From the NCBI GenBank assembly GCA_009746045.1, contig RPFO01001006.1, positions 34,244 to 98,243 on the forward strand: a stretch of DNA of 64,000 bases, given 5' to 3'. Below, one piece after another: positions 18,701-47,800 of the stretch; position 1 is the first letter of the stretch; each line of letters starts with the position of its first letter. Below the pieces are notes generated by a model. The model searched no databases, had not been told where the DNA came from, and worked only from the letters and a program-made list of their open reading frames with translations. A program made the translations under genes and the position numbers. This stretch comes from Mesostigma viride (taxonomy: Eukaryota; Streptophyta; Mesostigmatophyceae; Mesostigmatales; Mesostigmataceae).

Positions 18701-20833
18701 CGCGTGTGCCTCGCGTCGGTGATCAACCTGCGCGGGAACGTGGCCTTGAAAGGGTCACCGTCGGTCCCATCGGGGGCAGCGGGGGTGGGGGTTGGCCTCG
18801 CGGCCGCCCCCGAGACACGAGACTCCCTGTCTCGCCAGTTGGCGTCCCTGATCATGCGCGCGATGGGCCACGTGGGGGCGACCCTTGAGCCGGAAGGCGC
18901 GGCTCCCTTGCCATCAGGGGGGAGTGATGTGGGGCTCAAGACCACGATGCAGCTGCTGGCAGAGAGCAGCCTGTGCGTGGACTTGTTGGCTACCTGCGTC
19001 GCGGCATGCGCGGAGGATGAGCTGAGGAATTTGCCACTGGTGGGGCGGATCGTTTCGCCCCCCATGGGACCCGAGGGGGGTAAGGGCACACCAGGGGGCG
19101 ACGCGGGGGGGGATGGGCTCTCCGCCATGGATGTCGATGGGAGGGAGGGAGGCGGGGTTGGTGCCGGAAATGCGGCCCCTGGGGGTGGGTCGATGACTCG
19201 ATCCATCAGCTCCAAGCTTCTCGAGGGGGGCGGCGTGGGAGAGGGGGCCAGCGGCGGGGGTGGCCGGGCGGGGTCCTTATCGCTGTCATCCGTGGCGTCC
19301 TTGGCCCAAGAGGCTCTCTTCAAGGACAACTTCATGGACAATGTGAGCCGGCATTTCGCGATCCTGTTTGTCCTGCAGTCGCGCCAGCCGGGCCGCAAGG
19401 GTGCGCCCCTAGGGGGCGCGGGGATGGACTCGGCGGCGGGCAAGGAGACGACAGCCACAGGGCCGGGGGGGGCTGTGGCCGCGGATGGTTCGAAGCAGGC
19501 CGCAAGCGGAGGCGCGTCGGGCAAGGGGCCCGAGGAGGCCGTGGGCGCGCCAGGTGGCGCAAGGGCATCGGCCGGTACTGGGGTGGGTGCTCAGGAAGAC
19601 GTGGCGATGACAGACGTGGCGGATACCAGCACGTTGGCGGGCGTGAAGGCCGGCACAGGTGATGGGAAAGGAGGTGACGTGGAGATGGCGGATGCTGCAA
19701 GCGTCAAAGTGAAGGAGGAGGAGGTGAGCACACAGGCAGCCGTCACGGGCGACCCCGTGGCGACAGCTGGCGGCGTGAAAGCGGAGATCGCGGGCGAGGG
19801 CGGGGCGGGGCCTGCCGTCAAGGCGGCAGAGAGTGGCAGCGCCGGGGACGCGAGCAGCAAGCCTGGGGGGGGTGTTTTTCCCACCCCCGTGGCCTTGTCT
19901 AGCAAGGCACCTGTCAAGGCGGAGGCATCTGCGGGGGCGGGCCCGGTTGCGGGGGCCCTCCCTTCTGCTAGCAACGTCTCGGCACCGTCCACCGAGACCT
20001 CAGGGTCCGCCCTGGCCCCGGGGACCACGCTGTCGTCGGCTGGGGGGCTCGTGTCGCCTCCCCCGGCGGATGGGGTCGCCAAGCCTGAGACCGCGGGCGG
20101 TAAGGGGGGGGGCGGCGCATCGGCCAGCAGCAGCAAAGCGGGCGTCCCACCCCGCACGCTCAAGGAGCTGGACCCTTGTCTATATTTAGACGCGCTTGTC
20201 CGCGTCCTGTGCTGCAAGAGCCGGGCGCGGTCCCGTGCCGCCCTCTACCAGCTCAAGGTCTTGGTGGAGACAGTCCTCCTCCTCTGGTCCGCGGGGAAGG
20301 CCATCCAGGGCCAGTCCCAGGGGGCCACGGGCACCACCACGACGCCTGCCGTCACGGGGGCTACCGGACCCTCTGCCGGCACCAGCGGGGTAGCCACAGC
20401 TGGGGCGGACGGAAATGCTGGCGTGGCGGCGGATGCCGGTGGTGGTGCCGCGGGATCAGGTCCTGCCTCGGCACCGCCCAAGCCGAACGGGGCCACGGGA
20501 GTGACGGATGACAGGGATCCCTCGCTCTCCGATGCCCCTCCCTCGCGCTACCCAGCCATGTTCGACCAGCTCATCCCGCGACTGCTCCACTGCTGCTACA
20601 AGGTGCCCTGGGAGGAGCGCCTGGGTGGCGTCGCAGGGATCGGCCTGCTGGCCAAGCTGGTTCCCGCGGAGCTGCTACACCCGTACCTGCGTCGACTGCT
20701 CCAGGGGCTACTGTTTGTGCTCAACCACTTGTCGCCGTACGCAGCGTCCGAGGCGGAGGAGGTCTCGTCCACGCTGCTGGCGTTGATCAAGCTGTGTGAT
20801 GTGGAGGCGATTGAAGGGGATGTGCGGCCACAG
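15701..20833 (+). CDS. TRA1: TRA1 exon 1 (residues 1-1711, HEAT region)
   Basis: One 5.1 kb exon ending ...D-V-R-P-Q at GTGGGT, phase 0. Residues about 165-215 and 465-600 carry Gly/Pro/Ala inserts. Residues about 1120-1610 form a large Gly/Ala/Ser-rich disordered insertion with three V-K-x-E sites. Confidence 0.95.
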
Positions 20834-44800: not shown

Positions 44801-47800
44801 TCGTCGAGGAGTCGCGCGCGCTCCAAGAGCTTCAAGTCGTCGACGTCGAGATCCCGGGCCAATATGTCAAGGGGTGGGCCGACAGCCCCGTGCCCGGCGG
44901 CCCCAACGGCGCCGGTAAAGGCGCTTCCGGGCCCACTTCCCTCTTTGACCAACACGCGCGACTCGAGCGCTTCCTGCCCGACCTGCCCATCGTGCGGCGG
45001 CATGGGAGCAGCCACCGCCGGCTCTCGATGCTGGGCACGGATGGCAGCGTCCACCACTTCATGGTCCAGACCTCGCTCACGCAGAACGCGCGCAGCGACG
45101 AGCGCATGGTGCAGCTGTTCCGGTCCATCAATCGGTCACTGGCGGGCCACGTGCAGAGCACGGCGCGCTCGCTCGTGTTGTTCACGCCGGCAATCGTGCC
45201 CGTGTGGCCCCAAGTGCGGCTGGTCGAGGACGACCCAGCCTACTGCTCGCTCGGCGAGGTCTACGAGACAAACTGCACGCGGTACGGCCGCGAGCCGGAC
45301 CACCCCATCCTCCACTTCAAGGAGCGGCTGAGCTTCACAAAGAGCCTCACGCCCGAGGGCGTGATGGAGCTGCGCCAGCTCACGTACCAGGAGATCTGCG
45401 GCATGATGGTCTCAGAGAACGTCTTCTCCCAGTTCATGTACAAGACGCTCCCCCAGAGCTCGCAGCTGTGGAGCTTCAAGAAGCAGCTGGCTGCCCAGAT
45501 GGCGCTCTCGGGCCTCGTCTCGTTCTTGCTACGCGTCGGCGGCCGCGCGCCGAACAAGGCGCTGTTCGCCAAGCACTGCGGGAAGCTGTTCCAGATGGAC
45601 TTCCACCCGAGTGAGTGCCTCGTTTAGGACGTTTTTTGGGTGTTCAGGCCAGATTTTTTTATTTTTTTTTTGCTGTCTAGCATGGTTGTCATGATGGACA
45701 CTACGGTAACTTGAGGTTTTCAGTGCTGCTCCAAGTGAACTTTTCCATCTTCCACCCGAGTGAGTGCCCGAATGGTAGCACGGTGGTCACAGTAGACGCC
45801 ATGATTGGTACGTCTTTGGGAGGTGGTTCCAGCAGGGCTTCCGCCATAGTGAGTGCTGTGGTTGGCTTAGGCTGTCCATGAATGTGGTTGTTAGGCGCCA
45901 ACGGTTGTTGGGTTCGAGGTTGTATCAAATAACCTTCCACCCGATTGAATGCCGTGAGTGGCTTAGGCTGGGTGAGTGCCGTGGGTGGCGTAGGATGTTT
46001 AAGCTTCCTACAGCAGTATCGGCTGCCAGTGATTGCTGCTGCCCTGTCAGACGTGGTGTTAGTGGTGCTGTTCAGAGCTGTGCTAGAAGCAGATTCCGAT
46101 GGACTGAGTTTCTCTCGACTGAGTTTGGGCTCCCTGTTTAAGCGGGGTTGCCGTGAAGGACGTGACGAAAACATTATGTGCGAATGGTCACGATGCTCGG
46201 TCCCATTTGTGCCCTGGTATGGGATCCCATCCCCGTCGGACTAGCATGCTTTTTTTCCCCTTTTTTTCAACAGTATGCATGAATCTCTTTCCTCACTAAC
46301 GTGCACCCGTGCTGACGTCCACTGACCAATGTCGGGCCACCACCTTGCCACCCATTCGCTCTTTGCATGCCCATTGGTTCTCTTGTATTCGCGACTTAAC
46401 AAACAGCCTACGACATGAACGGGGCGCTTGAGTGCACGGAGCTCGTCCCGTTCCGCCTCACGCGCAACCTGTACACCTTCTTCACCCCCTTTGGCGTCGA
46501 CGGAATCTTTGTCTCGGCCATGGCGGCGGCCGCGCAGGCCATGAGCTCTGCCGACGTGAGTTCTCTTCCTACTTCCTTCGCGGTCCATCAAATGACTTGA
46601 ATAATTCTGTTGCTTAGATCATTGAGGGGGGATGTCGCTGGCTTTTCTTGCTCCGCAGATGTGAGTGCTCCTCATGTTTTTCAAATCATAGAGTATGCTA
46701 TGATCTTTTATCTTTATAATGATATTTATCTGTAGGTTGAGTAGGGATGAGTCGATTGGAATTGTTTTGACGTGGCAGACGCCTTTCGCCTTTGATGGCG
46801 GGCATATGTTTCTGGTGGGGCATCTTCAGAAGTGGTTTTTAGGGTACAGCCGTGTGATGCATTGTGCTGGCCCTTAGCTCTTCCCTTGTTGTGATATTTT
46901 AATGTGGCCAGCGCAACTTTGTCCAGACCTGTGACCTATCCATTCATACTTGCCTCTCATGCTGTTGCTCCTCTTTTCTACCTGCCTCTCATGCTGTTGC
47001 TCCTCTTTTCTACCTGCCTCTCATGCTGCTGCTCCTCTTTTCGACCTATGCCAATTTTTGACACGGACCTGTCCATGTTCTTGTCTTCTGCCATTTTTGT
47101 CTATGCTTGCTTTGTTTTGGGCCCATATTGTTGTTGCTTGCATTTCACCCCCTCAGGCCAACTTTGACACGGACCTGTCCATGTTCTTCCGCGACGAGCT
47201 ACTCTCCTGGTGCGTGCGGCGGCAGGCGTCCATGCCGCAGCTCATGGGCGCCTCCGCCACGCTCATGCCCGCCGAGCTCAAGCAAAAGGTGGCGATGAAT
47301 GTGGAGCCCGTCATGAAGCGGCTCCGGCTCATCGCGGTGCGCGACCCCGACGAGGTGAGCAGATTAGGGAGACAAATGCAAAACATTAGTCAAGTCTATG
47401 TGTAATTTATTATATAACAAATGGAATTGGGAAATGGTTGGATACGCGTGCACGACCCTGATGAGGTGAGCATGCGATGCGGGCGAGCGTTAGGGGGGTG
47501 AGAACATGGGGGGGGGGGAGAGAGTAGCGTGAAGGTGACGCGGACGAAGGTGGTGACCTGGACGAGGTGAGTCTATCACACAGCTAAGGGGGGGGGGGGG
47601 GTATGGGGGTGAAAATCTCAGGTCACCAGTCTGTGCCATGTATGCCATGTCTCTCCTCGTGTGGATACATGCATCTGCAAGTTCTGACAATCCTGTGTGT
47701 CATGTTCTGGATTACACCAACCTTGTGTGCAGATGGTTGCCAACGGAAAGGACATCAGCAAGGTGCTTATCCAGCGGCCAATCCAAGAGCTGGTGGAGGC

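Follow-up and report, generated by a model that had tools for sequence, protein, structure and literature searches.

Splice-junction copies within the introns of a TRA1/TRRAP-like gene of Mesostigma viride, putative relics of short tandem duplications

We analyzed a 64,000-nucleotide stretch of Mesostigma viride DNA (GenBank assembly GCA_009746045.1, contig RPFO01001006.1, positions 34,244 to 98,243 of the forward strand), referred to below as the window, which contains a giant TRA1/TRRAP-like gene whose introns repeat pieces of their own exon edges. The joined coding sequence translates into 5,090 amino acids without an internal stop, and its frame is intact over 24 exons. One exon (44764-45609) matches the PI3/PI4 kinase domain and has 25 relatives, two of which are named transformation/transcription domain-associated protein; judged by sequence, the gene is predicted to be a TRA1/TRRAP homologue. 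Relatives of this exon were absent from viral contigs, and 31 pattern matches in prokaryote genome contigs gave 0 confirmed relatives. Splice sites were deduced from the protein and the open frame rather than from RNA, and the acceptor of intron 10 could lie 9 nt further upstream. All echo counts given below come from this single gene.

15701..47858, + strand: TRA1/TRRAP-like gene, 24 exons and 23 introns, all GT-AG

The copies, which we term echoes, sit inside the introns and consist of the end of an exon together with the start of the same intron or, on the acceptor side, of sequence across the acceptor junction. They include the junction or border on it, and are listed here with one of their source junctions.

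20794..20838, + strand: intron 1 donor junction, source of echoes
20900..20944, + strand: intron 1 echo 1, 106 bp downstream, 84% over 45 nt
21037..21092, + strand: intron 1 echo 2, 250 bp downstream, 77% over 56 nt
21109..21161, + strand: intron 1 echo 3, weaker
22802..22844, + strand: intron 2 acceptor echo, 191 bp upstream
22884..22922, + strand: intron 2 acceptor echo, 109 bp upstream, 90%
23583..23613, + strand: intron 3 donor echo 1
23657-23680, + strand: intron 3 donor echo 2
23716..23755, + strand: intron 3 donor echo 3
25223..25267, + strand: intron 4 donor echo, 95 bp downstream, 87%; the next spacer is not alike
30173..30219, + strand: intron 7 donor echo 1, 96 bp downstream
30299..30352, + strand: intron 7 donor echo 2
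33656..33707, + strand: intron 10 donor echo 1
33808-33838 and, weaker, 33866-33893, + strand: further intron 10 donor echoes
34328..34456, + strand: intron 11 67-bp unit in 1.9 copies, the unit bearing a worn exon 11 edge
34936-34959, + strand: intron 12 weaker, tight copy
34998..35029, + strand: intron 12 donor echo, 110 bp downstream
36419..36614, + strand: intron 14 junction-spanning tandem duplication, 89-bp unit in 2.2 copies, starting in exon 14
37562..38138, + strand: intron 15 acceptor-side array of worn units, ~97, 193, 296, 465 and 561 bp upstream of exon 16
38441-38483, + strand: intron 16 other donor echo
38514..38558, + strand: intron 16 donor echo
39321..39342, + strand: intron 17 donor echo, 33 bp downstream
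39377-39392, + strand: intron 17 weaker donor echo
39759-39777, + strand: intron 17 weak acceptor echo
40073..40099, + strand: intron 18 donor echo, 111 bp downstream
42906..42956, + strand: intron 20 donor echo, 141 bp downstream, running into a CTGC array
45749..45768, + strand: intron 21 donor echo 1, exact over 20 nt
45818-45856, 45916-45953 and 46064-46124, + strand: other intron 21 donor echoes
46650..46673, + strand: intron 22 donor echo, weak, 105 bp downstream
47045..47082, + strand: intron 22 acceptor echo, 106 bp upstream of exon 23
47445..47486, + strand: intron 23 donor echo 1
47549-47571, + strand: intron 23 weaker donor echo

We compared exon edges alone (40 nt, zero intron bases) with their own introns, using dinucleotide shuffles as the control. 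At p<=0.05 the edges beat the shuffles at 14 of 23 donors (introns 1, 3, 4, 7, 10, 11, 12, 14, 16, 17, 20, 21, 22 and 23) and 3 of 23 acceptors; at p<=0.01 the counts were 12/23 and 3/23. Queries spanning the junction (60 nt of exon plus 20 nt of intron, local alignment) reached our main threshold of score >=16 in their own intron at 16 of 46 junctions, as compared with 3 of 1,012 pairs when non-adjacent introns served as the control (Fisher p 8e-21). Donors dominate, with 13/23 against 3/23 for acceptors (p 0.005). All 29 echoes at this threshold are direct, and an inverted match at score 16 appeared in 1 of the 46 junction tests. With the exon query lengthened to 130 nt, the number of junctions at score 16 rose from 16 to 17; the addition, acceptor 19, was not counted as an echo, its match lying near the far end of the query. 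A gapless test of the junction core (-24..+8, >=19/32 matches), with the expectation taken from the junctions of other introns, found 26 placements of donor cores in their own intron (0.86 expected) and 11 of acceptor cores (0.45 expected). In the junction-spanning and gapless tests, a convincing echo was absent from introns 5, 9 and 13, and those of introns 6, 8 and 19 were weak. Intron 11 passes the exon-only shuffle test, yet its junction-spanning matches stay below 16. We made the counts by local alignment because a BLAST self-comparison missed the strong intron 4 echo.

These results bear on a first-pass annotation of the window, which had described echoes in many of the 23 introns and had proposed comparing them with shuffled introns and with non-adjacent exons. 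Both comparisons, given above, place the echoes well above their controls, and 16 of the 23 introns carry one at score >=16. The one to four copies per junction (at that threshold) and the uniform orientation also stand as described. Thirteen of the 14 donors it named are in the shuffle-test set, and the remaining one, intron 18, is recovered solely by the junction-spanning query (score 17.5); the intron 22 donor echo is a weak addition to its list. Among its four acceptors, those of introns 2, 15 and 22 are solid and that of intron 17 is weak (score 15; 19/32 matches). Its distance range of 20-350 bp was too narrow, as we found copies up to 563 bp away.

The position of the copied sequence was defined by sliding a 40-nt query along the gene and calling a copy at score >=14, with 16 simple-array stretches masked, several of which are intron-internal tandem arrays. 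Queries centered on a donor had a downstream copy in 64% of cases, and those centered 60-150 nt before the donor had 0 in every bin; therefore, the intron copies derive from the junction. Deep in introns, a copy was found downstream for 6% of queries and upstream for 12%, the upstream share including echoes that match back to the exon. Exon-interior queries reached score 14 in 4% of cases and score 18 in 0.1% downstream and none upstream, mostly by matching other exon sequence, and exon stretches clear of the junction matched only weakly and in few cases (score 11-12; introns 3, 17 and 19 among them). The exon part of the 29 echoes is 8-53 nt long (median 28), a maximum that, for donor echoes, also holds with 130 exon bases in the query. 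The median distance to the nearest echo is 110.5 bp (16 junctions; 33 bp, then 89-149 bp, and one at 296 bp), and further copies often follow at steps of roughly 100 bp, as in the array before exon 16 listed above and at 149, 238 and 334 bp after exon 21. Outside intron 14, echoes are mostly 67-91% alike with scattered changes, and one is exact over 20 nt.

At junctions with more than one echo at score >=16, copies farther from the exon have lower identity (net 14 of 18 pairs; p 0.0017 by permutation), and the nearest echo is the best match at 7 of 9 junctions (p 0.04). Measured by score, the gradient is also seen at thresholds 15, 14 and 13 (p 0.025, 0.004 and 0.001). We regard this gradient as moderate evidence.

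Mismatches in the copied exon part fall at 43/274, 55/273 and 57/280 for the three codon positions, with no bias, as expected from the first-pass view that the copies are free of coding constraint. Because of this evenness we rule out a coding function: the echoes do not act as coding sequence. The quality of the copied splice sites was assessed in a hand list of 23 donor echoes, from which several weaker matches were left out. GT is retained in 20 of the 23, in line with the earlier remark that the splice-site dinucleotide is often kept, and 20 of 23 equal or outscore the weakest true donor. Donor scores average 6.6 in the echoes, compared with 9.2 in true donors and -3.9 at the remaining intronic GT; the echoes therefore make good decoys. 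The match rate is 0.81 at the site (0..+4) and 0.79 in the neighboring exon copy (-5..-1), in a profile of 22 echoes that excludes intron 14 and is slightly lowered by one intron 23 echo whose junction was placed one base off. As 0.81 is hardly above 0.79, selection on the echo site is not required. Two other candidates were rejected: recursive splice sites or twin introns, because just 9 of the 23 listed sites directly follow an AG, and an introner-like origin, because junction pieces match non-adjacent introns of the gene in 3 of 1,012 pairs. As for donor G-richness as a trigger, inspection by eye showed GTGGGT starts both among introns that have echoes and among those that lack them.

Whether a copy includes the spacer between exon edge and echo distinguishes contiguous duplication from copying of the core. 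In intron 14 an 89-bp unit begins in exon 14 and is present in 2.2 copies (98% matches; 97% alike by BLAST self-comparison). Its copies have two differences from the exon in common, and the last, partial copy ends before the junction. The middle unit therefore looks like a hybrid, with an older echo on its left and the exon edge on its right; misalignment of the exon edge with an existing echo would yield such a unit. In intron 11 a 67-bp unit is present in 1.9 copies, which we read as a duplication from echo to echo because the unit includes the worn exon 11 edge. On the acceptor side of intron 15, spacers are alike in 2 of 3 pairs tested. Over 28 unit pairs, 8 have spacers alike at p<=0.05 (introns 2, 3, 11, 14, 15 and 21), and the combined p is 0.00027 with intron 14 left out, as it was from two combined spacer tests.

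We then surveyed local repeat pairs within the gene (score >=17, within ~500 bp, best match per query, the 16 simple-array stretches masked). There were 34: 18 linking a junction or exon edge to an intron (at 15 junctions), 12 intron-intron and 4 exon-exon. By our reading, ~7 of the 12 intron-intron pairs lie in junction-bearing units or start at a donor, 2 belong to an inverted element in intron 7, 2 are low-complexity and 1 is unrelated. The survey was set against a neutral simulation of uniformly placed ~105-bp tandem duplications with fixed exons and decaying introns, run at five settings; it is crude, using uniform bases and one size distribution with masking absent. The simulated ratio of intron-intron to junction pairs was 3.1-5.6 and the observed one 12:18, or 0.67 (P 4e-5 for the lowest and 3e-8 for the highest simulated ratio, pairs being treated as independent). 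The simulated exon part was <=47 nt in 29-56% of cases (60 in all), compared with 16/16 nearest echoes. Uniform neutral tandem duplication was set aside as unlikely, as the simulation gave an excess of intron-internal repeats and overlong exon parts. A junction-specific step thus seems to be needed, which could be a lesion or pause at the junction or the renewal of copies from the selected exon edge.

On balance, we lean toward interpreting the echoes as relics of repeated short (~110 bp) direct tandem duplications whose unit spans the junction, mostly at the donor. A tandem duplication would be seeded at the splice junction, leaving the exon intact and placing a new copy beside it at each event. 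Older copies would shift inward and decay, and the intron would thereby lengthen from its edge. The exon edge, fixed by selection, would remain a good homology partner for the youngest copy, and slippage or unequal exchange between the two could keep adding units; the hybrid middle unit of intron 14 fits such slippage or exchange between exon edge and echo. Copies with much exon sequence may be purged as rivals of the true splice site, and the removal of copies that compete for splicing could account for the short exon part and the donor bias. The first-pass annotation had likewise proposed repeated tandem duplication across junctions, for which intron 14 and, in decayed form, intron 15 provide whole units and intron 11 an echo-to-echo duplication; the spacers of introns 4 and 12 and of acceptor 22 are not what simple contiguous duplication would give. 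Its extension to intron lengthening throughout the genome goes beyond what one gene can support.

Several observations weigh against this interpretation. Spacers show no similarity in 20 of the 28 pairs, well-kept cores included. In introns 4 and 12 and at acceptor 22 the cores are 87-91% alike and the spacers no better than shuffles (p 0.67, 0.75 and 0.93), which is not as recent contiguous duplication predicts; the spacer may have been replaced, the core may have been renewed later through exchange with the exon, or the copying may have been limited to the core. An earlier, cruder spacer test found 5 of 23 alike, one of which (intron 17) is probably an overlap with the next echo. By identity, the distance gradient weakens at thresholds 15, 14 and 13 (p 0.013, 0.056 and 0.059), because introns 12 and 15 hold weaker copies closer than the best copy; in introns 10 and 16, too, a copy other than the nearest has the highest identity. 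Placing echoes by alignments picked for high score sharpens the picture. The masked stretches include intron-internal arrays (22-34 bp units; introns 4, 15, 16, 20 and 22), and when six of them are added to the intron-intron class and the 15 junctions are counted in place of the 18 pairs, the excess shrinks (P 0.007 to 4e-5, independence assumed). Finally, the junction excess needs a junction-specific cause or renewal step, which is putative.

We considered other origins for the echoes. A process coupled to transcription or splicing and targeted to the junction, triggered for example by nicking where an RNA-DNA hybrid around the donor ends, might repeatedly copy the last ~25 nt of the exon together with the first ~80 nt of the intron, so that introns of this lineage would grow in ~110-bp steps from the 5' end and keep a dated record of that growth; we regard this as possible, though doubtful. 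It is unlikely, in our estimation, that tandem duplication occurs everywhere at a uniform rate and that junction copies merely stay visible. A junction copy does remain recognizable longer, as the exon edge is nearly invariant, and short-unit arrays do lie deep in introns 4, 15, 16, 20 and 22. However, the simulation includes this effect and still exceeds the observed 12:18, its simulated exon parts are too often longer than 47 nt, and about 7 of the 12 intron-intron pairs are, as we read them, themselves in junction-bearing units. Copying of the core alone, in which ~20-60 nt across the junction would be pasted 50-110 bp off without a spacer, as break-repair filler or from RNA, appears a little less likely still. 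It would suit the introns where cores are alike without spacer similarity (4, 12, 23 and acceptor 22). Filler, however, should also take exon sequence distant from the junction and should give inverted pieces, and neither the empty bins at 60-150 nt before the donor nor the single inverted match in 46 agrees with this; nor do the whole units in introns 14 and 15. A few weak off-junction exon matches do exist, in introns 3, 17 and 19 among others.

Retention of the echoes by selection, as decoy or regulatory donor sites, is improbable. Their GT retention and donor scores are what such a role would favor, but selection on the site predicts a match rate clearly above that of the neighboring exon copy rather than one barely above it, and at the main threshold matches worsen with distance. 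We consider it highly improbable that the echoes are translated alternative exons or exon ends: coding sequence does adjoin donor-like sites, and an acceptor-like stretch precedes intron 1 echo 2, but codon-position bias is absent and the distance of a donor echo is divisible by three in just 5 of 24 cases. An assembly artefact is equally hard to credit. Repeats near junctions can mislead assemblers, and the intron 14 copies are 97% alike; the other echoes, however, carry scattered changes at 67-91% likeness, and the frame is intact over 24 exons.

The tandem duplications that we favor have partial counterparts in known systems. Minisatellites grow by slippage or unequal exchange, in which misaligned homologous neighbors add units. 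The likeness is the addition of units by misalignment, as intron 14 suggests; the difference is that the TRA1 array has a fixed anchor, one partner being the selected exon edge. Reed and Maniatis are said to have described, in 1986, cis-competition between duplicated splice sites; such a rule would explain the tolerance of copies with little exon, but it is an experimental rule and not a genomic arrangement. Intron lengthening is usually ascribed to transposon insertion. The TRA1 introns, instead, seem to lengthen stepwise by duplicating their own splice junction, and strong decoy donors, which the cell has to pass over, are left behind. Each copy can be dated against the exon edge as a fixed reference, which would make intron growth and splice-site choice directly testable within one genome.

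Intron gain by tandem duplication has been described, and in the potato RdRp case a short tandem duplication likewise crosses an intron-exon boundary (PMC4974935). There the duplication creates a new intron, whereas the TRA1 introns appear to pre-exist and to receive copies, with no new intron evident. CST-guided Pol alpha fill-in at staggered breaks produces small tandem duplications that are, like the echoes, direct and head-to-tail, arising in one step at overhang breaks (43 bases in one assay; PMC8355091). Such fill-in is a plausible source of the first copy. Unlike the TRA1 echoes, these duplications have, in the portion of PMC8355091 available, no tie to splice junctions and no iteration at one place, and the word 'transcription' is absent from its text. 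Repeated copying at one junction across many introns is not described in the accessible parts of PMC4974935 or PMC8355091. Among the matches listed, no published title describes the junction-copy pattern, from which we do not claim its absence from print.

The window holds several further features. Two lie within introns of the TRA1/TRRAP-like gene: a near-perfect inverted repeat in intron 7, which is probably a foldback mobile element, and a tetranucleotide array in intron 20 that starts immediately beside the donor of the intron 20 echo. Downstream lies the last exon of a Rubisco accumulation factor-like (Raf1-like) gene, which is indicative of the green lineage; the exon upstream of it was not found, and the best acceptor echo at this exon (score 12) was not convincing. 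A second tetranucleotide array lies near this exon. Toward the start of the window are a minus-strand frame with a YADD motif and no Pfam match, which is probably a reverse transcriptase fragment, and an internal array that resembles algal telomere repeats.

30677-31448: intron 7 inverted repeat, arms of 385 nt, 96% complementary, 2 nt between arms
42941-44153: ~303 CTGC copies, intron 20
61343-61936, - strand: last exon of the Raf1-like gene, Rubisco assembly chaperone C-terminal domain PF18087, E 3e-22
61942-63511: ~393 GGAA copies
2217-2699, - strand: frame with YADD motif
6264-6440: ~22 copies of the 8-base TGTTAGGG unit

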